A stretch of 39,276 nucleotides of DNA, taken from contig SKHG01000019.1 in assembly GCA_007117035.1 (NCBI GenBank), forward strand, positions 1-39,276. The letters run 5' to 3'. Source of the DNA: Candidatus Campbelliibacteriota bacterium. Lineage in GTDB: Bacteria; Patescibacteriota; Minisyncoccia; Phycocordibacterales; CSBR16-193. The notes under the pieces are model-generated. The model made no database searches. It was given only the letters and a program-made list of their open reading frames with translations, and was not told the origin of the DNA. The stretch's first letter is position 1, and each line of letters starts with the position of its first letter. This document shows, one piece after another, positions 2,925 to 30,667 of the stretch. Both the position numbers and the translations under genes were made by a program.

Positions 2925-5149
<2,225 letters not shown>

Positions 5150-6611
5150 ATTTTGTCCAGTAAATTAATATTTTTTGAAAATTCCTTTAGAAAATTGTCA
5201 AACGAAATTTCACCCTTCAAGACTAAATTTTTTGACTCCCAAAAGCCCCTGTGGGTCCTGAGTAATTTGATTATATCTTTTTTTGCCGACTTGATTAGAC
5301 TCAAATCATTTTCATCATTGTGTATCCAGTCCGTAAAGACAATTGATAGCAACAGGATTTGTATCTCAAACTCTATTAAATCAGTCTCCGTTTGATTTAA
5401 AAGTTCCTGCAAGACAGAACCCTGTTTAAGAATTTTTTTTGTGTAACCACTAACTTGGGTACCGAACCTGCTGTACTCTTGATGTTTAGGGTATTCTGCC
5501 CAAACAGATCGGAGTTTAGTTGAAAGTTCACGAGACAAAACGGTTTGTGTAGAATGTCCGATACGAGTAACCGATTTAGAAATAGAAACAGCAGGAAGAT
5601 AACCTTCGGCTTCTTTGTTTGTGGTAAAAAACAAATGACCGTCAGTTGATGCCATTATGTTTGTAGATATAAGACTGGTGTAATTTTCAACATTTGTTTC
5701 TAAAACAGGAAGGAGGGTTATACTACCACCGTTTTTAAAACTTCCCGCTCTTTCCATCAAATGTGCCTGCTGATAAAAGATATCACCTGGATAAGATTCC
5801 TTTCCGGGTAATTCCCCAGCAAGTAAAGCAACTTCTCTAATATAATTTGCGTGCATCGACATATCATCTATAACCAAAAGAACATCCTCTCCTTTTTTTG
5901 AAAAATATTCTGCGATTAGAAAGGCAGTGGATGGCGCAATTGTTATCATTGGAGCAGGTTCATCAGAAAGAGCAGAGACTATTATAGTATTGTCCTCAAC
6001 TCCTTTATTCTTTAAAAAATTCTTTAAGTTTTCAACGAATGAAATTGGTTTTCCGACAGCTGCATAAATACAAAGTGTGTTGTGTTTTTTTTGATTAACT
6101 ATCACCTCTCTTAAAAACTTTTGTTTACCACTATGAATAGGCCCATAGATTAACTCTCTCTGCCCCTTACCAATCGGGACCATTATATCAATAAGACTAA
6201 ATCCAGTAACAAGCTGTTTACTAATAAAACTTCTTACATCCACTCCAGGAGCTTTAGCGTCAAACAATAAAGGTTCGGTTGGCCCATAAGAACCTGATGT
6301 TTTTTTATTATCAAGAATAATATCACCCAGAGCATTTAGGACCTTACCTTTAATATGGTCTCCGACCGAGATTGATAGTTTGGCTGAGTGTATATAAAAC
6401 TGTGTACCTGTTGAAACTGTAGTTTTTTCCAAAAGCAGAGCAACTATATATTCAGCATACAAAGCGTGAACCTTTGCTCTTTCCCCTTCTCTACTTACAA
6501 TTATGTCATTAACTTTAGCTGAGGGTAAGCCTTTAATTTTAAGCAAATATCCATTAACAGCTGTCACTGAGCCTATTTCCTGATGTGTTATTTTAGGGAT
6601 CATTTTTATAA

Positions 6612-17015: not shown

Positions 17016-17020
17016 CTATA

Positions 17021-17046
17021 CAATTTCCTTTGTTTTGTTCCGTTCC
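17021..17046 (-). repeat. 3' arm of 16S precursor processing stem (pairs with 18767-18792)
   Basis: caatttcctttgttttgttccgttcc is the reverse complement of ggaacggaacaaaacaaaagaaattg with 1 mismatch in 26. Confidence 0.85.
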
Positions 17047-17159
17047 GATCGGTCTTTGCCGAATGTCAGGTTGTTTTTGAGCTCACAACCATTGCTTACC
17101 GATCACCCAAGATCGAACCGACCTTTCACCTCTTCGAATAAATCGAAGAAGGACAAAGA

Positions 17160-18718
<1,559 letters not shown>

Positions 18719-18766
18719 ATTTAATCACCTTTCCACCCACAAGGGGTAGTTGAGTTTTTATTGTTT

Positions 18767-18792
18767 GGAACGGAACAAAACAAAAGAAATTG
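18767..18792 (-). repeat. 5' arm of 16S processing stem
   Basis: See 17021-17046. Confidence 0.85.
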
Positions 18793-18938
18793 TTCCTTAC
18801 TATGATCCTGTAGAATATTTGGTTATTGCGCCCTGAACTACATTGCTAAAACTGTAATCCAGAGCAACTTGCACTTGGTTCTATTCTTTATTATTTTGTC
18901 AAAGATTCAAGTACCACTCTCTTTCGAGTGTAGGCTCC

Positions 18939-18966
18939 ATTATATACACTATTCTCAGAGAGTCAA
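18939..18966 (-). promoter_or_regulatory. 16S promoter: TTGACT-16-TATAAT
   Basis: Reverse complement of agtcaa 18961-18966 and attata 18939-18944. Confidence 0.75.
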
Positions 18967-18973
18967 GAAAATC

Positions 18974-19876
18974 TTAAATTTTCTTTCTTTTTTGCCATTT
19001 TTCTAGCTCCACGATAATTGGACTTGCTAAAAAGATCGACGAGTATGTTCCGGCGATAACTCCGACCGCCAGAACCAAAGCGAACAATTGAGTAACTGAA
19101 CCGCCCAAAAAATACAAAGCTCCTAGGACAAAAAGTGTGGTTAACGATGTATTAATAGACCTGACGTAAGTCTGTTTTAGACTTCGACCAACAACTTCAT
19201 CAAAAGGTTCTTTTAAATTATCTTCTTCGTTAACCCTTAAATTCTCACGAATACGGTCGAAGACCACAATCGTATCATTTACTGAAAATCCTAAGATTGC
19301 TAAAAGAGCAGTGACAAACAGAACATCAATCTCAGCTCCGATATAAAATCCTAAGACAGCAAACAAACCGACTGGAATAGTAATGTCGTGAATTAAAGCG
19401 AGAGTTGCGGTAAAACCGTAACGCCAAGATGAAACTGGCTTAGAAACTCTTCGGAAAACATAAGCGATGAACAGAATAATAGCAAGAGCAACTACCGCAA
19501 TAGCGATCAAAGCTTTAGACTTCAACTCATCACCAATACTTGGACCGATAGAGTTAAAGCGCTCTTCAACTGCTGAGAACTCACCAAAAGATAACGCACT
19601 GAGTAGCAGATCCCTTTCCTCACCGATATGATCTTGACCTCTGATTATAAACCCTCGGTCTGTTTCCTGAACTCTAGCAGAAAATCCAGCTTCAACAACA
19701 GCCGACTCAACATCTTCAAGAGCTGGAACTTTTTCTTCATAAGAAACTTCTATAATCGCACCGCCTGTAAACTCAATACCGTAATTTAAACCAAACATCG
19801 CAACAGCTCCAATAGAGGCCACTATCAAAAGAGTAGAGAGTCCGAAGAATATTTTTCTGTATTTTATAACAAACAT
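18974..19876 (-). CDS. secF: Protein translocase subunit SecF
   Basis: GIEFTGGAIIEVSYE, LGFSVNDTIVVFDRIREN, RSINTSLTTLFVLGALYFLGG. Confidence 0.96.
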   Translation of the reverse strand: MFVIKYRKIFFGLSTLLIVASIGAVAMFGLNYGIEFTGGAIIEVSYEEKVPALEDVESAVVEAGFSARVQETDRGFIIRGQDHIGEERDLLLSALSFGEFSAVEERFNSIGPSIGDELKSKALIAIAVVALAIILFIAYVFRRVSKPVSSWRYGFTATLALIHDITIPVGLFAVLGFYIGAEIDVLFVTALLAILGFSVNDTIVVFDRIRENLRVNEEDNLKEPFDEVVGRSLKQTYVRSINTSLTTLFVLGALYFLGGSVTQLFALVLAVGVIAGTYSSIFLASPIIVELEKWQKRKKI

Positions 19877-19878
19877 AA

Positions 19879-21387
19879 TTATTTAATTTCTTTTACGGTA
19901 TTATTTTGCGATTTTAAACCTTCTGAAAAACCTGACCCGAACAGAAGACCAATCAACTTTCCTTCCTTACCTCCGAAAGCTATTAAAAATGTTCTAGTTA
20001 CCGTAATGGCTGATACCATACTTATCAAAACTCCGATGAAAAAGACTAGAGCAAAACCCTGCACCAAGGCGGTACCAAACCAATACAGAATAACTGCAGT
20101 GATCATACTAGACATATTACCATCACGAATTGAGAGCCATGCTCTTGCAAAACCATCATTGATAGAATCAGTTAAATTCTTTCCGTTACGTAACTCTTCT
20201 TTCATTCTTTCAAATATCAAAATATTAGCATCGACAGCCATACCAATAGAGAGTATAAAACCAGCGATACCAGCTGCGGTTAAAGTTACTGGCAAAACTT
20301 TAAACAAAGTCATCATAATAACCAAATAAAGTGAAAGAGCGACAATTGCCAAAAGACCTGGTAGGCGATACCACAACATCAGGAATATAGAGACTAAAAT
20401 CAAACCAACTACTCCAGCAACTACTCCAGCCTGCATAACTTCAGCTCCCAAGGTTGGCCCTACAGTCTGTGTTGAGATCAATTCGATATTAACCGGTAAA
20501 GCACCAGCGCGAAGTCTCTGTGCTAACTCCAAAGCTTCACTGGTTGTAAACCCGCCTGAAATAATTGCCTCACCACCTCTAATCTCCTCCCGTATAACAG
20601 GTTCAGATATAGGTTCACCATCTAAAAAGATAGCTAAGTTTCTACCTAGGTTATCTCTGGTAATCTCTTGAAACAGCCGAGCTCCCTCTCTGTTAAATGT
20701 AATCGAAACTATCGGCTCTCTAGTAGTTTGGTGTCGTGCAAACTGCGCGTTGTTCAACATACTACCATCAAGGCCAGTCCACTCATAACCAATATATCGA
20801 TCTTTTTCTGAGTCTGAATCTGAGTCACTTTCTTGCTGATCTAAATCCTCATCAGCTTCCTCCAAAGATTGAGACCCTTCACTAATTTCCACACCATTTA
20901 GTTCCAGATCAAGTAATGTAGCATTAAGAGCGTTTTCATCTAACAAACGAAACTCCAGTATAGGTGTTTCTCCAATTGCTGAAATTGCTTCATCAACATC
21001 AGTCACTCCAGGCAACTCAACAATCAAACGATATTCTCCTTCACCTGTTATGCCACCACGTTCAACCTGCACTAGAGGTTCTGAGACTCCAAGGACATTA
21101 ACCCTGCGTTCGATTAGTTCCCGCAAAGCACTCATTCTCTGCTCTCTTTCTTGTCTGTCCTTAATTCCTTCTACATCAGCTCGATAGACCAAGTGCGCTC
21201 CACCAGCCAGATCAAGACCTAACTGAAAAGGAAAACGAGCTAAGCCCCTAACCTCCAATTCCTCACCTGCACCAATTCGTTCTGACACTTCCCTAGAGTC
21301 TATTTCAGACTGATACACAAAATAAACTCCTAAAATTAGAAGAAGTGAAAATATTATAGAAAGTAGTCTGTAACCAGTAATGTTCAT
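19879..21387 (-). CDS. secD: Protein translocase subunit SecD
   Basis: LGLDLAGGAHLVYRADV, ERRVNVLGVSEPLVQ, VDANILIFERMKEELRNGK. Confidence 0.96.
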   Translation of the reverse strand: MNITGYRLLSIIFSLLLILGVYFVYQSEIDSREVSERIGAGEELEVRGLARFPFQLGLDLAGGAHLVYRADVEGIKDRQEREQRMSALRELIERRVNVLGVSEPLVQVERGGITGEGEYRLIVELPGVTDVDEAISAIGETPILEFRLLDENALNATLLDLELNGVEISEGSQSLEEADEDLDQQESDSDSDSEKDRYIGYEWTGLDGSMLNNAQFARHQTTREPIVSITFNREGARLFQEITRDNLGRNLAIFLDGEPISEPVIREEIRGGEAIISGGFTTSEALELAQRLRAGALPVNIELISTQTVGPTLGAEVMQAGVVAGVVGLILVSIFLMLWYRLPGLLAIVALSLYLVIMMTLFKVLPVTLTAAGIAGFILSIGMAVDANILIFERMKEELRNGKNLTDSINDGFARAWLSIRDGNMSSMITAVILYWFGTALVQGFALVFFIGVLISMVSAITVTRTFLIAFGGKEGKLIGLLFGSGFSEGLKSQNNTVKEIK

Positions 21388-21456
21388 ATATACAGCACAC
21401 TTTACCTGATTTGGTCGAAATTATCAAGAATCATTAAAATAACCAAATAGGTTTAG

Positions 21457-22674
21457 CTATATTGTAAATTGACCATCTTTATAGACCACTTTTTCCGAAC
21501 CATCCTTTAGGTAAGCTGTAACCTTTCGGCGAGTTGTCGAAATGATGTCAGTGTGAACTGAAGAATCATTAAAACCAATCTTTTTCCAGTCAGACTTCTT
21601 TAAACTTTGGCATTCCCCGTTAAAACAATCAGCATAAGCCTTACCAAGAGCAATATGCGTGTTACCTTGTGGTCCACCTATGTTTTCATCATATAGAGTC
21701 TCAGCCATAAATTTATCTATTCGAGAAAATCTTTTGTCAGTCAATGAAAACTCTCCAACCTTATCAGCTCCCTCAACCTTAATCATCTCACGCAAAACTT
21801 TTTGATTTTTTTTAGCACGGCTTTTTATCACTCGACCGTCTTTAAACTCTAATTCTATTCCTTCGATTAAATTACCATAACGATATAATGGTTGATTAAA
21901 ACGGATCCAGCCTTCAGTCCCACGCCAATCTGGAGAGGTGAAAATTTCAAAACTTGGAATATTTCGACCACTACCACCAGACCATCTGCGATTCTCACCA
22001 ACTGATATCCACAAATCGACATCTTCACCTTCAATATGTAGTCGCTCTATTGGTAGAGTGGTCATTTTTTGACGCAATGAATTTATTTTTTTCAAAACTT
22101 CTTTCCAACTTTTAACAGGATCTTTTTTGTCTAAAAAACAAGCTCGAATTATCTGATCCCAATAGTTCTCCAAAGACAGACCAGCCTCCTGAGCCATAGC
22201 TGATGTACCGTACAGTCCTAAAGTCCAAGTATATTTACCTTCGTTTTCTTTCTTATCAAGCCAAGACCTTAAAGGCTTCAACGCTTCTCCTCGAGACATT
22301 ATCTTTTTTGGATCAATTCCTTCCAAAGAATGCTTGTCGACTTCAGACAAAATAGCGATCGAATGATCAATATCTTTCACCATTCCTTTGATATAGTTTT
22401 TTGGAAAAAACTCTAGTTGTTTTTTGTCAGCATTTTCAAAAAAAGCTCTAGAGAAATTAAAACTTTTGTTGTTGTCATCTGGCAAGTAATTGACGATAGT
22501 GTGCGCTCCACTAGACAACAGAGCCTTATAGAGCTCCATATAAAGTGGTTTAGCAGACTCAGAAACAACCAAACGAACCACTTCTCCTCTTTTCACCCCA
22601 CGACCGTCATTTAGAGCAAAATTAACCAAAACGTCAGCATATCTTTTCAAAATTTTTTCTGAAGGTTGATACAT
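21457..22674 (-). CDS. M29-family aminopeptidase (AmpS/PepS-like)
   Basis: FTSPDWRGTEGWIRFNQPLYRYG, GNTHIALGKAYADCF, SVHTDIISTTRRKVTAYLKDG. Confidence 0.82.
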   Translation of the reverse strand: MYQPSEKILKRYADVLVNFALNDGRGVKRGEVVRLVVSESAKPLYMELYKALLSSGAHTIVNYLPDDNNKSFNFSRAFFENADKKQLEFFPKNYIKGMVKDIDHSIAILSEVDKHSLEGIDPKKIMSRGEALKPLRSWLDKKENEGKYTWTLGLYGTSAMAQEAGLSLENYWDQIIRACFLDKKDPVKSWKEVLKKINSLRQKMTTLPIERLHIEGEDVDLWISVGENRRWSGGSGRNIPSFEIFTSPDWRGTEGWIRFNQPLYRYGNLIEGIELEFKDGRVIKSRAKKNQKVLREMIKVEGADKVGEFSLTDKRFSRIDKFMAETLYDENIGGPQGNTHIALGKAYADCFNGECQSLKKSDWKKIGFNDSSVHTDIISTTRRKVTAYLKDGSEKVVYKDGQFTI

Positions 22675-22676
22675 AT

Positions 22677-23996
22677 TTATTTCTTAAAAAGGCTAAAAAA
22701 CACAGCGATTAATACACGAAGATCCAAAACAAGTGAATGATTTTTAAGGTAGTAAAGATCGTACGAAAATATTCTACTAACACTCAAATTATTTAGACTA
22801 AAATTTTCTGAGCCAGACCAACTCCAGATTCCAGGTCTGATTATGTACCTAATGGTATAGAAAGGTAAATCGCTCTTCTTACTAAACTCCAAATCGTTTT
22901 CTTTTAGGTACGGACCGATGAAAGATATCTGACCCTTAACAACAGACCAAACAAAAGGAAATCTTTCTATTCCTGACTTTTGCAAAAAACGACCTAACGA
23001 AGGAACTGTTCCGTCCGGTAAAGAAACTCGGAATTTAAATAAGGTGATCGGGTTGTTGTTCCTTCCAATATATTCTTTTTTAATTAACGCTGAACCTTTA
23101 ATTCCAGAGAAACGCTGTGCGACGAAAACCAAAGGATGGATGAACAGTAATAAAGAGACGGACAGGATTCCCAAAATAACATCAAAACCTCTTTTAATCG
23201 AATCATACGGAGTGTGAGGAGACATAGAAAGGTTCTCCAAAAACCAACTATAGCGCAAAGCTGAAATTGGTGTTCTTTCAAAAAATTCCTCATAAAGTCT
23301 TTGGACATCCACAAACCTAACTTTAGAAAATATAAGGTTGTAAAGGTGAGGTAATATCTTTTCAACTCCCTTTTGTTGAAGATCAATTCCAACAACACGA
23401 ATATCTTCAGAATATATCAAACTTATAATATCCTCTTGGACATCAATAACATCTATCTTTTTTAAATCAATGGAAGAGACGAAAATAAAACCATTCTTAG
23501 AGTTTTTGTTCATATCCTCTTTCAGTTCATGCACCTCAGAACCAGTTCCGATTATCATAGCTTTTTTACGATTGCGTCCACCTAAAACAAAATCTCGCCC
23601 GACTGTTCTCCAAACATACAGGAAAAATAAAAGAACTAAAAAATAGATACTGACAAAAAATATAGGAACAGCTTCAAAACCTAAAAAGTAAAAGGACAGA
23701 CCAGCAATAACAAAATTAATAACAGTAGAGTAAAAAACTAATGCAGGAACCTTATATTTCAACATCAAAATCTGACGGTTATACAAACCAGCCATAAAAA
23801 ACACCACTAGCCAAATTGTAAAAAGTGGTAAGAAATAAGGTAGGTATGAATAGATTAAACCTTGATCTGGCCAACCCCAAACAAAAATAATGAGTGCCAA
23901 CCAAAAGGCCACAACAAAGCAAACGATGTCTCCAACAACAAGAAAAACATCGGTTTTATTTTCCGCCCAATCTCGTAAAACCTTCATCATTAACAA
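22677..23996 (-). CDS. Undecaprenyl-phosphate sugar phosphotransferase (polyprenyl glycosylphosphotransferase, WcaJ-like); ATG a few codons inside is the likelier start
   Basis: N-terminal TMs; YDSIKRGFDVILGILSVSLLL...TLFKFRVSLPDGTVPSLGRFLQKSGIERFPFVWSVVKGQISFIGP. Confidence 0.88.
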   Translation of the reverse strand: MLMMKVLRDWAENKTDVFLVVGDIVCFVVAFWLALIIFVWGWPDQGLIYSYLPYFLPLFTIWLVVFFMAGLYNRQILMLKYKVPALVFYSTVINFVIAGLSFYFLGFEAVPIFFVSIYFLVLLFFLYVWRTVGRDFVLGGRNRKKAMIIGTGSEVHELKEDMNKNSKNGFIFVSSIDLKKIDVIDVQEDIISLIYSEDIRVVGIDLQQKGVEKILPHLYNLIFSKVRFVDVQRLYEEFFERTPISALRYSWFLENLSMSPHTPYDSIKRGFDVILGILSVSLLLFIHPLVFVAQRFSGIKGSALIKKEYIGRNNNPITLFKFRVSLPDGTVPSLGRFLQKSGIERFPFVWSVVKGQISFIGPYLKENDLEFSKKSDLPFYTIRYIIRPGIWSWSGSENFSLNNLSVSRIFSYDLYYLKNHSLVLDLRVLIAVFFSLFKK

Positions 23997-24030
23997 TCAG
24001 TATATAACATTATTTCAAAGGTTCCCAATC

Positions 24031-25173
24031 TTAAGATATATAAGGGTCACTCAACATTTCATTTTCTCGAATATCTTTGTGTGTGACATAATTATGACGA
24101 CGAATACTCATCAATATTCCAAGACCAATAAAAGTAGCCAACAAGTGACTACCACCAAAACTCATAAAAGGTAAAGTAATACCTGTCACAGGCAAGATAC
24201 CGACATTTGCTCCAATGTGAATAAAAATATGACACATTATCATTGTCGCAAGACCAACACCAAACAAAACTTCAAAGTTGGTTGCTCCTTTTAAAGAGTT
24301 AGCAAATATTCGCCAGATAATTAAACCGAAAAGAAAAAAGAGGAAAAATACACCCAGAAAACCCCACTCCTCTGCGAAGGCTGCAAATATAAAGTCTGTC
24401 TCATGTTCTGGTAAAAATTTTAAGTGCGACTGAGTTCCGTAGCCAACACCCTTCCCCGACAAACCTCCAGATCCAACCGCTATGGTCGATTGTAATGTGT
24501 GATAACCTCCACCCTCCATATCAGCATAAGGTTGTAGAAAAGAGACGATTCGGTTTTTTTGATAATCCTCAAAAGCAAACAACCACAAACCACCAAAAAC
24601 TATCAGACCACTTAATCCAACGATTAAAAGGTGCTTTTTTGATATTCCAGAAACTAATATCATACCCAGCCAAATCATGATTATAACAACAGATGAACCA
24701 AAATCGGGTTGAAAAAAGATTAAGCTAAATATAATAAATGCATATATACCAGATATAATTATGTGACGAAAATCTGCAATCTCAACATGTCTTCTGCTAA
24801 AGTATTTAGCTAAAACAATGATTAAGGCAATTTTAGCAAACTCAGAAACCTGTATCGAGAATCCACCAATCTCTAGCCACCTTTGGGATCCTTGGGTTAC
24901 TTCACCTAAAACAAAAACAGCTAAAAGAGATATAACTGCAAGTATAAAAATTATGGTCACAACAACGGTCCTTCGAAGAAACTGCAAATTAACAGAACTT
25001 AAAATAAATAAAGCAGAGAAAGAAATACCAAGCCAAACTAATTGCTTTTCAAAAAAATAATTCTCTGCAGAAAAAGACTGCATTGTTAGTAAACCTAAAA
25101 TAGATACTGCCAATACAGAACCGATTAATACCCAGTCTATCCTGCAAAAAACAGATTGTATCTTATGAGACAT
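24031..25173 (-). CDS. rodA: SEDS-family peptidoglycan polymerase RodA/FtsW
   Basis: GSQRWLEIGGFSIQVSEFAKIALIIVLAKY, PDFGSSVVI, GYGTQSHLKFLPEHETDFIFAAFAEEWGF, LPVTGITLPFMSFGGS. Confidence 0.93.
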   Translation of the reverse strand: MSHKIQSVFCRIDWVLIGSVLAVSILGLLTMQSFSAENYFFEKQLVWLGISFSALFILSSVNLQFLRRTVVVTIIFILAVISLLAVFVLGEVTQGSQRWLEIGGFSIQVSEFAKIALIIVLAKYFSRRHVEIADFRHIIISGIYAFIIFSLIFFQPDFGSSVVIIMIWLGMILVSGISKKHLLIVGLSGLIVFGGLWLFAFEDYQKNRIVSFLQPYADMEGGGYHTLQSTIAVGSGGLSGKGVGYGTQSHLKFLPEHETDFIFAAFAEEWGFLGVFFLFFLFGLIIWRIFANSLKGATNFEVLFGVGLATMIMCHIFIHIGANVGILPVTGITLPFMSFGGSHLLATFIGLGILMSIRRHNYVTHKDIRENEMLSDPYIS

Positions 25174-25210
25174 AATTTTGTAAAACTAAACTTGTTTAAT
25201 TTATCTCCGA

Positions 25211-25957
25211 CTAAAAGGATCTCAGCCGAGCAGATATCTGAGTACTTATCGAATCGACAAACTCTTTTGGCCAAGTAAACGATACTGACCTCTCAGTCTC
25301 ACCCGAAATTCGATCAACAAAAGACCTAGAAAGACCTACTAAATCCCCGTTTTGATCAAGTAATAACGCAACAACCTCAATGTTTTCAACTGCTCTAAAC
25401 GACCTATTTCTTATCGAAGTATCTAGGCGTGTACTTTTTTCCTCAACGAATTTCTGAGTATTCTGAACAAACAAGTCTGTGTCTGGAGATTTACCTGCTT
25501 GCCAAGGAACATTCAGCCACTGAAAAGTTACAAACTCTGGAGTCTCTGCTGTATATATTCTGTCCTCAAAGACATAGAATTTTTGCAAAGAAGGTACTGA
25601 GGTACTACCATCTCTTGATGCAATAATCTCACCAAGGCTGTTATAGAAATTAAAACGATAATAGGCTCGAGAAGACGAAAGTTCACTGTGTGGGGATGAA
25701 ACTCTTGATACAGCATTATAGATTCCATCCGACGTCAGAACAGCCCTAGACCACAAAACCTGAGGGTTCTTGGGAGCCGAAACATCAACTCTCTCAGCTG
25801 GTGAGACAAGCAAAAAAATCGGTATCGTAACTATCAGTAAGAGAAAAATAAACACAGTTACGGTGAAAAAAACTTTCCTTTTAAAGGCCCATGGATTCAT
25901 ACTAACTATAATAAAGGGTAAATCGCTCGGAGGCAACCCTACCCTAACCCACATCAT
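25211..25957 (-). CDS. Single-pass membrane protein with extracytoplasmic domain, unknown function
   Basis: TM near N-terminus then soluble domain; common gene position upstream of rodA. Confidence 0.6.
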   Translation of the reverse strand: MMWVRVGLPPSDLPFIIVSMNPWAFKRKVFFTVTVFIFLLLIVTIPIFLLVSPAERVDVSAPKNPQVLWSRAVLTSDGIYNAVSRVSSPHSELSSSRAYYRFNFYNSLGEIIASRDGSTSVPSLQKFYVFEDRIYTAETPEFVTFQWLNVPWQAGKSPDTDLFVQNTQKFVEEKSTRLDTSIRNRSFRAVENIEVVALLLDQNGDLVGLSRSFVDRISGETERSVSFTWPKEFVDSISTQISARLRSF

Positions 25958-25969
25958 TAAATTTTAGAC

Positions 25970-26010
25970 ACAAAAAAACACGTCTTTAAAAAAGTACGCG
26001 TGTTTTAACA
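25970..26010 (-). terminator. Terminator after 5S rRNA
   Basis: Minus strand AAAACACGCG...GACGTGTTTTTTT. Confidence 0.7.
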
Positions 26011-26037
26011 AACAAGTTCTTCATAACTTAAATACTC

Positions 26038-26150
26038 TATGTTGGCGCCTACCTACTCTTGCCTTGCGACTACCATCGGCTCAAGAGGGCTTAACTGCCG
26101 TATTCGGAATGAGAACGGGTGTGACCCCTCCGATAAAGCACCAACATAGA
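26038..26150 (-). rRNA. rrf: 5S rRNA (ends approximate)
   Basis: ctatgttggcgcc...gccgtattcggaatgagaacgggtgtgacccctccg...accaacatag; terminal helix closes. Confidence 0.92.
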
Positions 26151-26174
26151 AAATTTAAGCGAAGATTTTAACTA

Positions 26175-26325
26175 TAAGGAAAGTCAGATCTAGAGATGAT
26201 ATTTCAAATATCATCTAAATCGGGATGAAAGGATTCGAACCTCCGACACATCGCATGGAGCGACAGCTCTCCCAGACTGAGCTACATCCCGAAAAAAGAA
26301 CAGATTCCAGATCTGACATTCCTTA
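26175..26325. repeat. 17-bp inverted repeat (16/17) bracketing the 23S-5S spacer tRNA
   Basis: taaggaaagtcagatct (26175-26191) vs agatctgacattcctta (26309-26325). Confidence 0.8.
26220..26291 (-). tRNA. tRNA, isotype uncertain; best reading Trp(CCA)
   Basis: RNA CGGGATGTAGCTCAGTCTGGGAGAGCTGTCGCTCCATGCGATGTGTCGGAGGTTCGAATCCTTTCATCCCGA; perfect 7-bp acceptor stem and TTCGAAT loop; weak anticodon stem. Confidence 0.7.
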
Positions 26326-26337
26326 CAGAATTTTTAC

Positions 26338-26366
26338 TTGATCACATGAAACAGGGTAAAACATTT
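26338..26366 (-). repeat. 3' arm of 23S processing stem (pairs with 30668-30694)
   Basis: ttgatcacatgaaacagggtaaaacat vs reverse complement of atgttttaccctgtcgcatgagatcaa. Confidence 0.8.
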
Positions 26367-26751
26367 TACTTATCGCAAAAGCGATATTTTTAGTTAAAAG
26401 ACAAACCTACTTCTCACCAAAGTGAGATGAGATTTTCTTCTCATATCTGCGTACACATTTCCTAACAGGATTCGAACATTAGTACTCCTCGGCTTAACAC
26501 ATTACTATGCTTACACCTAGAGCCTATCAACCTGGTCATCTCCCAGGAGTCTCAAACGATTCCTAATCTTAAAGTTGGCTTCCCTCTTAGATGCTTTCAG
26601 AGGTTATCCATTCCCGACATAGCTACTCGGCGGTGCCGCTGGCGCGACAGCCGATAGACCAGAGGTCAGTTCACAAAGGTCCTCTCGTACTATTTGCAAA
26701 TCTTTTCAAGAATCTACGCCTGCAGTAGATAGAGGACCGACCTGTCTTACG

Positions 26752-27169
26752 CATGATACCACCTGTTACCAGATGCATTGGACTGTAGCTTTTACCATCA
26801 CCATATAGGTGTGGCAAGTTGACGTTCAGTCTCTACGGGCCCCGTTTGTTTAAAACAAACGGGTTCCCTCGGTATTGCCCTTGAATTATTCAAGGGTTTC
26901 ACCGATATAAGTCCCGACTTAATAAAGTCGGGATCCTTAATTTTGCAATTCTACTAAAGTAGACACAAAACAAGGATCAACATAAGTACATATATATTTC
27001 TATATATGACCGCCGTAATGTGATCGTCTCTATTCCCAGCTTGGGCTGAGATCTTCAATTTATTTAAAAAATGAAGACTTTCTTATTTTTTCTTAGACAG
27101 AAAACCCGATTTTGTCATTATGTGCCGGATTCAGACTGTCTTACCCTCTTAAATAATTAAGAGAGCACG
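26752..27169 (-). other. Group I intron, ORF-less, inserted at 23S position equivalent to E. coli 2593
   Basis: Joined exon GACCGU|CGUAAGACAGGUC matches the length of E. coli GAACGUCGUGAGACAGUUC. IGS GCGGUC (27008-27013) pairs with exon GACCGU (U.G at splice site); UUACG (27014-27018) pairs with 3' exon CGUAA (P10). P7-type GUAGAGACUGAACG...AAGCUACAGUCC; terminal G. Confidence 0.9.
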
Positions 27170-27305
27170 ACGGTCTGAACCCAGCTCGCGTACCTTTTTA
27201 ATTGGCGAACAGCCAAACCCTTGGCAGCTTCTCCACCACCAGGATAAGGTGAGCCGACATCGAGGTGCCGAACACCGCCGTCGATCTGAACTCTTGGGCG
27301 GTACC

Positions 27306-27342
<37 letters not shown>

Positions 27343-27847
27343 TCCGGCCGCATCTAATACGAACCGTCGGATCACTTAGCTCCGCTTTCGCGCCTGCTCG
27401 AGATGTACCTCTCACAGTCAAGCCGGCTTATGCCTATACACTATCGGCACGGTTTCCATTCGCGCCTAGCCGACCTTAATAGACTCCTCCGTTACTTTTT
27501 AGGAGGAGAGCGCCCCACTCAAACTACCCGCCAGATACTGTCCCTCTACGTTTTTTCCGTACAGGTTGAGAAGTTATAGACTAATAGGATGGTATTTCAC
27601 TGACGACTCCAGACAAACCAAAATCTGCCCTTCAAAGTCTCCCATCTATTCTGCGCAATTAATCCATAACCCCAATATCAAGCTATAGTAAAGCTCCCGG
27701 GGTCTTTCTGTCTAACTGCAGGTAACCGGCATCTTTACCGGTACTGCATTTTCACCGAGCAAGTCCCCGAGACAGCTCTCCAGTCATTACGCCATTCGTG
27801 CACGTCTGAACTTACCAGACAAGGAACTGCGCTACCTTAGGACCGTT

Positions 27848-28640
27848 CTTTAAGGTTTTAAATGGACTGTAATTTGTAACTATTTATCAATTTTCTTTAT
27901 CTAAGTTGTTAACTCTATGTCGCCATAGAGATCGGACTATATCATCGTTTTCAAATCGTCGGCTCCAATTATTGATTTGAATCCGTCTTGCGTGTAGTCT
28001 CTGAGGATTCTTCTACCATTAAGACATCTGATAATGTATATTTTCGTTTTCTTCCCACTCCTTCATTTAGAATTTCTCTTAATTTAAGAATTTCTTCAAA
28101 ACCATCTTTTGTGAGATGATCTTTTTCAAACATTTGATCTACAATTTTTTTAAAAATTGAGAAATTTTGTTTTTTCTTTGAAGAAATAAAATTAAATTTC
28201 TTAAAGAATGGGACAACTCTCTCTTTAAGCGAAGTAACGTTAGTTACTTCATAATATACAACTCCGTCTTTTCTTTCTCTAAGAGTTCCACACCCCAGAT
28301 TCTTTTTAATCCAAGAAAGTATCACTCTATCTTTTTGAGAAATATTGAACGAAGCAGTTATCTTCCATTTTCCTACATAATCATTTCTTTTTTTGAGAGA
28401 AACATTAAAGCTTCCCTCTCCATCAGCGAAACCAGCTATATAATATCCATCTTTTGGATTTATATTTTTAAGCCATTGTTGTTCCATTGTTGAAATTAAT
28501 TTAGTAGAAGTCTTTCCTGCTGATTGACTGCATTATTGCATTGTTACTTTTTCATCGACATGAAATTAGTAGCAATAAATACTAACCAGTGTTTCCAGCA
28601 TATAGCAAGATTTATTTACGTAACTACAACGGTCATGTCT
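27848..28640 (-). other. Group I intron with LAGLIDADG ORF at 23S position equivalent to E. coli 1917
   Basis: Exon ...CGUAACUAU|AACGGUC... IGS GUAGUUACG (28619-28627) gives a 9-bp P1 with U.G; GACCGUU (28628-28634) gives a 7-bp P10; GAUAUAGUCC P7-like; terminal G. Confidence 0.93.
27969..28487 (-). CDS. LAGLIDADG homing endonuclease (single-motif) inside the L1917 intron
   Basis: YYIAGFADGEGSFNVSLKKR...KITASFNISQKDRVILSWIKKNLGCGTLRERKDGVVYYEV. Confidence 0.93.
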   Translation of the reverse strand: MEQQWLKNINPKDGYYIAGFADGEGSFNVSLKKRNDYVGKWKITASFNISQKDRVILSWIKKNLGCGTLRERKDGVVYYEVTNVTSLKERVVPFFKKFNFISSKKKQNFSIFKKIVDQMFEKDHLTKDGFEEILKLREILNEGVGRKRKYTLSDVLMVEESSETTRKTDSNQ

Positions 28641-30092
28641 ATAGTTACGGCCGACATTCACCAGGGCTTATATCAACCAACTTAAGAAAGCAAGCTTTCC
28701 TAAATCCCCGATATTTAACCTTCTGGCATTGGTCAGGCGTCACCCCCTATACATCCTCTTACGAGTTCGCAGGGAGCTGTGTTTTTGATAAACAGTTGCC
28801 AGAGAAACTTTAGCTGCGGCCACACTCCGTAAAGAGTATGGCAAGCCTTATCCCGAAGTTACGGCTGCTTTTTTGCCGAGTTCCTTGGGGACCTCTCACT
28901 CGTTCGCCTTGGTCTACTCGACCCGACCACCTGTGTTGGTTTCCGGTACGGTCTTGCTATACATCATCTTAGAGGCTTTTCTTGGAAGGTTGCTCATACA
29001 AATCAGATCATCCCGAAGGAATCACCTTTTCTCTGTGCTTGGGTTATTGTTGCGCGGATTTGCCTACGCAACACCCTTACACCAAGAACGGTAATCCGAT
29101 AAACCGCTCATATTACTAACCTCCGTCACCCCATCAAAATATAGCAAGGTCATGGAATATTAACCATGTGTCCATCCAGTACGGCTCTCGCCATCCTGTT
29201 AGGCCCGACTAACCCTTGGTTGATTAACATAGCCAAGGAAACCTTGGTCTTTCGGCGGGCAGGAATTTCACCTGCCTTGTGGTTACTTGTGCCAACATTC
29301 TTACTTCCACTCACTCCAGTATGGGTCGCCCCTTTACCTTCATCGCGGAGTGGAATACTCTCCTACCGCTCCATTTTTCCGAAGAAAAATAAAGCCCTCA
29401 GTTTCGGTACTACACTTGAGCCCCGATCATCTTTGGTGCAAAGTCTCTTGATGAGTGAGCTGTTACGCTATCTTTAAAGGATGGCTGCTTCTAAGCCAAC
29501 CTCCTCATTGTCGGAGAAACTTCACCTCCTTAATTTGCACTTAGTGTAGATTTAGGGACCTTAACTTGAGGTCCGGGCTGTTTCCCTTTCGACCAATGGA
29601 CCTTAGCGCCCACAGTCTAACTGCCATGCTTTTAATCTTGGGTATTCGGAGTTTGATTGGTTTGACGAGCCGAAGCCCTGTTCAGACCATCCAGTGCTCT
29701 ACCCCCCAAGGGAACGCACGACGCTAGCCCTAAAGCTATTTCGGAGAGAACCAGCTATTACCAAGTTCGATTAGCTTTTCACTCCTTACCACAAGTCATC
29801 CGATGGCTTTATACGACCAACCGGTTCGGGCCTCCCTTTGACTTTCGTCAAAGTTCACCCTGCTCATGGTAAGCTCACTTGGTTTCGGGTCTCATCACAC
29901 TTCTACTGTCGGCAGAACCGACAACGCCCTATTAAGACTCGGTTTCCCTACGCCTTCGGAGGTCTACTCCTTAGACAAAAAAATATGATGAACTCGTTGG
30001 CTCATTCTTCAATAGGCACGCCGTCGAGGTTGCAAGCAACCTCTTCGACTTCTTGTAGACATATGGTTTCAGATCTATTTCACTCCCCTTTC

Positions 30093-30126
<34 letters not shown>

Positions 30127-30667
30127 TCACTATCGATCTCTAAGAGTATTTAGCCTTGGGAGTTAGTCCTCCCTGCTTCCCCCGAGATTTTCGTGTCTCG
30201 GGGTACTCAAGATCAACAGCAGAAGAGATTCACTGTTTTCGCGTACGGGACCGTTACCCTCTAGGGTTCAACTTTCCAGTTGATTCCGCTAACAGTGCAT
30301 TTTTTGACTCTTCCGACATTACGTCATGCTGTTGTCTTACAACCCCAAACTCTTTATAAATAAAAAGTTTGGTTTGGGCTTTTTCCGTTTCGCTCGCCGC
30401 TACTAAGGAAATAACTATTGTTCTCTTTTCCTCCAGGTACTTAGATGTTTCAGTTCCCTGGGTCTGCGTCCTGTATAAATTACAGGACCTCTCTTTTCAC
30501 GTATGAAAAGAGAGAGGTTTCCCCATTCGGAGATCTCCGGATCAAAGGTTGCTAGGCACCTCCCCGAAGCTTATCGCAGCCGTGCTACGTCCTTCATCGC
30601 CTCTTAGAGTCAAGGCATCCACCATATGCCCTTAAATTCCCATTAGGAAATCTAAAAACAATTTTTT

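Follow-up and report, generated by a model that had tools for sequence, protein, structure and literature searches.

Order-wide loss of the anti-Shine-Dalgarno sequence in Parcubacteria-type Patescibacteria and a co-varying hairpin at its former site

The 16S rRNA gene described here comes from a Parcubacteria-type order of Patescibacteria whose sampled members have all lost the anti-Shine-Dalgarno sequence (aSD). The gene lies in the window (the whole stretch of DNA that was analysed, 39,276 nt), and the explanation that we regard, taken as a whole, as quite probable combines this order-wide loss with an SD-independent (largely leaderless) initiation of translation and a stepwise decay of the aSD during which a hairpin was retained. 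The aSD is often treated as near-universal, and here a large order of tiny, uncultured bacteria manages without it. This is relevant to the question of how ribosomes recognise start codons when SD pairing is absent. It also matters for gene prediction in Patescibacteria, where SD-based start models should fail, for the heterologous expression of their genes and for the cause, distinct from mRNA pairing, that keeps the 16S tail conserved.

The 3' end of the 16S rRNA gene

Bacterial 16S rRNAs usually carry GATCACCTCCTTA directly after helix 45. In the window's gene, GAAUAUAUCAAUC comes after the intact helix 45, and CCUCC is absent from its surroundings: the stretch between helix 45 and the trailer arm of the rRNA's processing stem contains no CCTCC (Table 1). 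The absence of the aSD, first noticed in a sequence-only reading of the window, is real and complete, and the well-paired helix 45 with its GGAA loop, the otherwise intact gene and the intact processing stem described in that reading are likewise borne out. Such an intact helix 45 accompanied by neither CCUCC nor a close variant is one of the marks of aSD-less bacteria in the sense of Lim 2012 and Amin 2018. The genome to which the window belongs (812,790 bases in 81 contigs, 96.6% complete) holds a single 16S copy, and a second, CCUCC-bearing copy, which the same reading had named as a finding that would overturn the loss, was not found in it. The exact sequence of the mature 3' tail is predicted here from the gene. 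The motif GATCACCTCCT has one occurrence elsewhere in the genome (C7:9094), which was discarded as it lies within protein-coding sequence and has no rRNA match.

The processing stem was located as the longest complementary stretch, an approach that replaced the free folding of leader-trailer duplexes, whose results were untidy, and equivalent stems are present in most of the relatives examined. In most of the relatives examined (L001-L023), the stem consists of a conserved element, CTTTTGTTCCGTTC on the leader side and GAACGGAACAAAAG on the trailer side.

Table 1. Location of the 16S rRNA features in the window and of KsgA in the same genome.
Feature	Position	Strand	Remarks
16S rRNA gene	17158..18723	-	Rfam RF00177, matched end to end (1-1533), 1360 bits; single copy of the genome
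Helix 45 of 16S rRNA, CACGGCTAGC-GGAA-GCTGGTCGTG	17171..17194	-	Well paired, intact, GGAA loop
13-nt 16S 3' tail GAATATATCAATC, without aSD, in place of GATCACCTCCTTA/T	17158..17170	-	Read from sequence; RF00177 match stops at 17158
Weak 3-bp hairpin CAA-UCU-UUG	17154..17162	-	Read from sequence; site of the order's usual UUCA...UGAA hairpin
Leader arm of 16S processing stem, ACAATTTCTTTTGTTTTGTTCCGTTCC	18767..18793	-	Pairs with trailer arm 17020..17046 at 26 of 27 positions; counterparts in relatives
Trailer arm of 16S processing stem, GGAACGGAACAAAACAAAGGAAATTGT	17020..17046	-	Pairs with leader arm 18767..18793
KsgA	G000:C3:32682-33449 (window's genome)		208 bits

Extent of the loss in the order, the class and the phylum

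In relatives from the family and the order, the aSD is missing wherever the 16S 3' end can be read. In a survey of the order with a helix-45-anchored pattern, 3' ends were recovered from 98 of 197 genomes, representing 60 families (our own count), and CCTCC was absent from 99 of the 100 ends obtained. The only end bearing it (G131:C6, tail GATCACCTCC) sits on a foreign-looking contig, and it was treated as contamination, and not as a true aSD-bearing member of the order, because its helix 45 is unlike that of the order and the same genome has an aSD-less copy. A pattern scan of named genomes additionally returned at least 120 contigs with a tail of the order's type, with Nomurabacteria, Zambryskibacteria, Taylorbacteria, Adlerbacteria, Yonathbacteria and Paceibacter among the matches listed; Nomuraibacteriota are placed by NCBI within the Parcubacteria group of Patescibacteria.

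Since the sister genomes show the same loss, the tail of the window's gene is explained neither by chance nor by an assembly error. The idea of an assembly or binning artefact, according to which the true 16S would carry CCUCC and the tail seen here would be chimeric, may draw on the fragmentation of the assembly (81 contigs) and on its estimated contamination of 3.5%, but it is scarcely credible when tails of the same type recur across 60 families (98 genomes) and on at least 120 contigs of named genomes, and when a matching processing stem follows the tail.

Beyond the order, the picture is a graded one. Among the matches listed, nearly all tails from the other classes of the phylum are GATCACCTCCTTTC, keeping GAUCACCUCCUUUC, and only a few are variants, e.g., ACCGCC in one family. 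Within the class, the other orders comprise 55 families with readable tails, of which, by our own classification, 16 are intact, 13 weakened (for instance, GATCATCTCC, GATTTTCTCC or GAACATTTCTT), 21 lost and 5 mixed between lost and weakened. These living intermediates mean that the steps of the aSD loss can be read and put to the test. The sequence-only reading had regarded the loss as rare and as a notable change in the translation system; the loss itself stands, while rarity does not apply within this clade, which shows a fixed loss in the order and graded states in the class.

Shine-Dalgarno motifs before genes

The use of SD motifs was assessed in six genomes, three of them aSD-less (the window's own included), one weakened (G575) and two aSD-intact (G223 and G640). 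Genes were predicted without SD information by our own script in about 0.27-0.4 Mb per genome, and SD cores were defined as AGGA, GGAG or GAGG at -18..-5 of the predicted start codons. In the aSD-less genomes, such cores precede 6.5% (the window's own), 3.4% and 5.5% of the genes, against 7-11% in upstream control windows, and in the two aSD-intact relatives they precede 12.1% (controls 9-11%) and 7.3% (controls 7-8%), so that no SD enrichment is seen in either of the two sets. As a positive control, E. coli gave 70% with annotated starts and 45% when its genes were called in the same way. Operon-internal genes do differ, an SD core being present in 9 of 259 in the aSD-less genomes vs. 37 of 297 in the intact ones (Fisher p = 9e-5), with equal control windows. 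The weakened genome reaches 20.6% of its genes; in it (G575:C1, a relative from the class), AGGAGG is found before genes 11 times vs. 0.5 expected, and its tail GAACAATTCTTTT should pair poorly with that motif.

The lack of enrichment even in the two relatives that keep CCUCC makes a sudden change in translation improbable. Judging from these two aSD-intact genomes, SD use probably lapsed before the aSD decayed. It would probably have been weak in the phylum ahead of the change in the aSD, which would have left the CCUCC core free for a stepwise decay, and the ribosomes of the order would now be unable to locate start codons via SD pairing.

Could the new tail (GGANYAWUUCAA) be part of a recoded system, in which a changed anti-SD pairs with a changed SD motif? 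The conservation of the order's tail at positions 7-11 does resemble that of a functional sequence. However, in the three aSD-less genomes, the pairing of their own tails to the region -20..-4 is no better than that of shuffled tails (z of 0.24, 1.05 and 0.44), which renders such a system unlikely, and no motif that would pair with the new tail was found upstream of their genes, the enriched upstream k-mers being A/T-rich and -10-like instead of tail complements such as TTGAA. Given that, in addition, the conservation of the tail is explained by the hairpin described below, we consider a recoded system very unlikely.

A promoter signal for probable leaderless initiation

A different signal is found upstream of the start codons. 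A TATAAT-like hexamer lies at exactly -12 from the start codon (i.e., spanning -12 to -7) in 19, 29, 22, 12, 17 and 25 genes of the six genomes, with an expectation per offset of 2.1-3.4 genes, and this excess is present in all six, both aSD-bearing and aSD-less. The genes with this box also show the features of an extended -10 element, namely T at -15 (68%) and G at -14 (54%). When a transcript starts with the start codon itself, its -10 box lies at -12; it is therefore likely that leaderless mRNAs are common in these bacteria, with or without the aSD. YchF, a factor that promotes leaderless translation, is reported to be broadly conserved in CPR (PMC12641178).

Nonetheless, the box at -12 accounts for about 4-9% of all genes and for about 10% of the divergently transcribed first genes, a minority that leaves most genes in need of another explanation; the leaders of the remaining genes are A/T-rich and G-poor. 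Initiation would most likely take place on leaderless mRNAs from extended -10 promoters, with transcription beginning at the start codon, and also on A/U-rich, probably unstructured leaders between the genes of an operon.

The replacement tail and its hairpin

The 92 distinct tails of the order follow the consensus GA-[A/T]-[T/C]-A-[A/T]-T-T-C-A-A, with T at position 8 in 90 of them (98%) and A at position 11 in 86 (93%). Positions 7-10 are complementary to four nucleotides lying slightly further downstream. Of 113 distinct tails that were taken from named contigs without regard to their downstream part, 85 contain the exactly complementary 4-mer (2.7 on average and at most 9 in 1000 shuffles), nearly always at tail position 13 or 14. 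When the downstream parts are exchanged between sequences, the 4-bp hairpin found in 51 of the 92 tails of the order compares with a mean of 26 and a maximum of 36, and that found in 21 of 29 weakened tails of the class with a mean of 12 and a maximum of 19, in tests that treat the sequences as independent and do not correct for shared ancestry. The arms co-vary: TTCA/TGAA, TTCC/GGAA and GTCA/TGAC are found in the order, and CTCC/GGAG, TCCT/AGGA, TTCT/AGAA, ATTC/GAAT, TTTC/GAAA and ATCC/GGAT, among others, in the weakened tails, while a CTCC/GGAG hairpin is also possible in aSD-intact relatives. In the window's own tail, only the weak hairpin of Table 1 can be drawn at the corresponding site, and RNAfold forms the hairpin for the order's consensus, not for this tail.

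The pairing of the former aSD positions in a hairpin accounts for the conserved tail of the order. The observed covariation argues that the aSD positions are held in a hairpin of the precursor, a pairing that would have outlasted the CCUCC sequence itself, and selection has probably retained in most of the order this small structure, in which the former aSD positions pair with the adjacent downstream sequence, with CUCC/GGAG arms in relatives and UUCA/UGAA or UUCC/GGAA arms in the order. It would probably assist the precursor in forming the 3' end of 16S rRNA; according to a 2025 study (PMC12641178), CPR retain RNase III, RNase J and PNPase. More tentatively, and with somewhat less than even confidence, the former aSD might now be purely structural, a co-varying hairpin at the 3' end of the pre-16S rRNA, or even of the finished subunit, that has lost its pairing with mRNAs. 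If true, two functions of a sequence that ranks among the most conserved in bacteria would have come apart, in cells that do without SD-paired initiation.

Another view would be that of neutral decay only, with tail and hairpin devoid of function and leaders that are merely A/T-rich. It finds some backing in the class outside the order, where several aSD-less families have variable, A/T-rich tails without the hairpin, and where the aSD-less families show no hairpin excess (8 of 40 vs. 8.2 expected). Yet the near-invariance of positions 8 (U) and 11 (A) among the order's distinct tails, the covariation of the hairpin's 3' arm in the order and the concentration of the -10 box at one exact offset all go against it, and we deem it unlikely, if less so than a recoded system.

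Other aSD-less bacteria

Bacteria lacking the aSD have been described before: PMC6107228 (Amin et al. 2018, citing Lim et al. 2012) names Flavobacteriia (Chryseobacterium, Elizabethkingia, Riemerella), Carsonella, Hodgkinia and some Mycoplasma, and Amin et al. count 128 organisms without the consensus aSD, mostly Bacteroidetes, Mycoplasma and Carsonella (PMC6107228). They resemble the present case in that helix 45 is retained, CCUCC is lost and SD motifs are absent before genes. Unlike them, the loss reported here affects a whole order of Patescibacteria (60 families sampled), has intermediates in sister families and is accompanied by a co-varying tail hairpin in most members of the order. Closer in phylogenetic terms are the single aSD-less genomes of Campbellbacteria, Ca. 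Wolfebacteria, Peribacter and two of SR1 listed in the accessible part of a 2024 study (PMC10783764), i.e., candidate-phyla lineages, including Parcubacteria-type ones, without CCUCC and with few SD genes; whereas those appear, in that part, as single genomes in a table, the extent in the clade, the graded decay, the hairpin covariation and the leaderless promoters are described here. Bacteroidota, in turn, share a weak SD signal and A-rich starts with the aSD-intact Patescibacteria G223 and G640, but most of them keep CCUCC without SD use, whereas CCUCC is gone in the window's order (PMC6847099, PMC10783764). The order-wide scale, the graded series and the co-varying hairpin appear to be new, in that no report of any of them was found in the open literature; this is provisional, because most subscription papers and all preprints lay outside the search.

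Translation factors and other features of the window

KsgA, which methylates the GGAA loop of helix 45, is above the cut-off in 18 of 21 genomes and is encoded in that of the window (Table 1). Era recognises and binds GAUCACCUCC; no match to it above the cut-off was obtained in the 21 genomes, and it was discarded as a partner, the only matches being to the GTPase domain and all under the cut-off. This agrees with most CPR being reported without Era (PMC10582724). Partial S1-type matches are present in 21 of 21 genomes and weak bS21 matches in 7, the window's genome included. In the latter, the S1-type match (G000:C2:52972-54012) contains one in-frame TAA, and the weak bS21 match (G000:C2:56710-56862) lies about 2.7 kb from it, a neighbourhood that is also found in G002, G008 and G014.

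The window holds no compact rRNA operon, because a gap of about 7.7 kb with protein-coding genes (18723-26459; SecD/SecF-like and others) splits the 16S from the 23S rRNA gene. The latter (26459-30647, minus strand) spans 4189 nt against a model of 2925 positions, and within it there are two group-I-intron-like matches (26759-27005, 48.8 bits, and 27913-28107, 32.9 bits; both short of the gathering score, 50), together with an ORF for a LAGLIDADG endonuclease (27969-28487). Finally, the usual P-loop of the ATP synthase alpha-type subunit is GDRQTGKT, and the subunit encoded in the window (5116-6603, minus strand; PF00006, 199 bits) has a divergent one, GPIHSGKQ.
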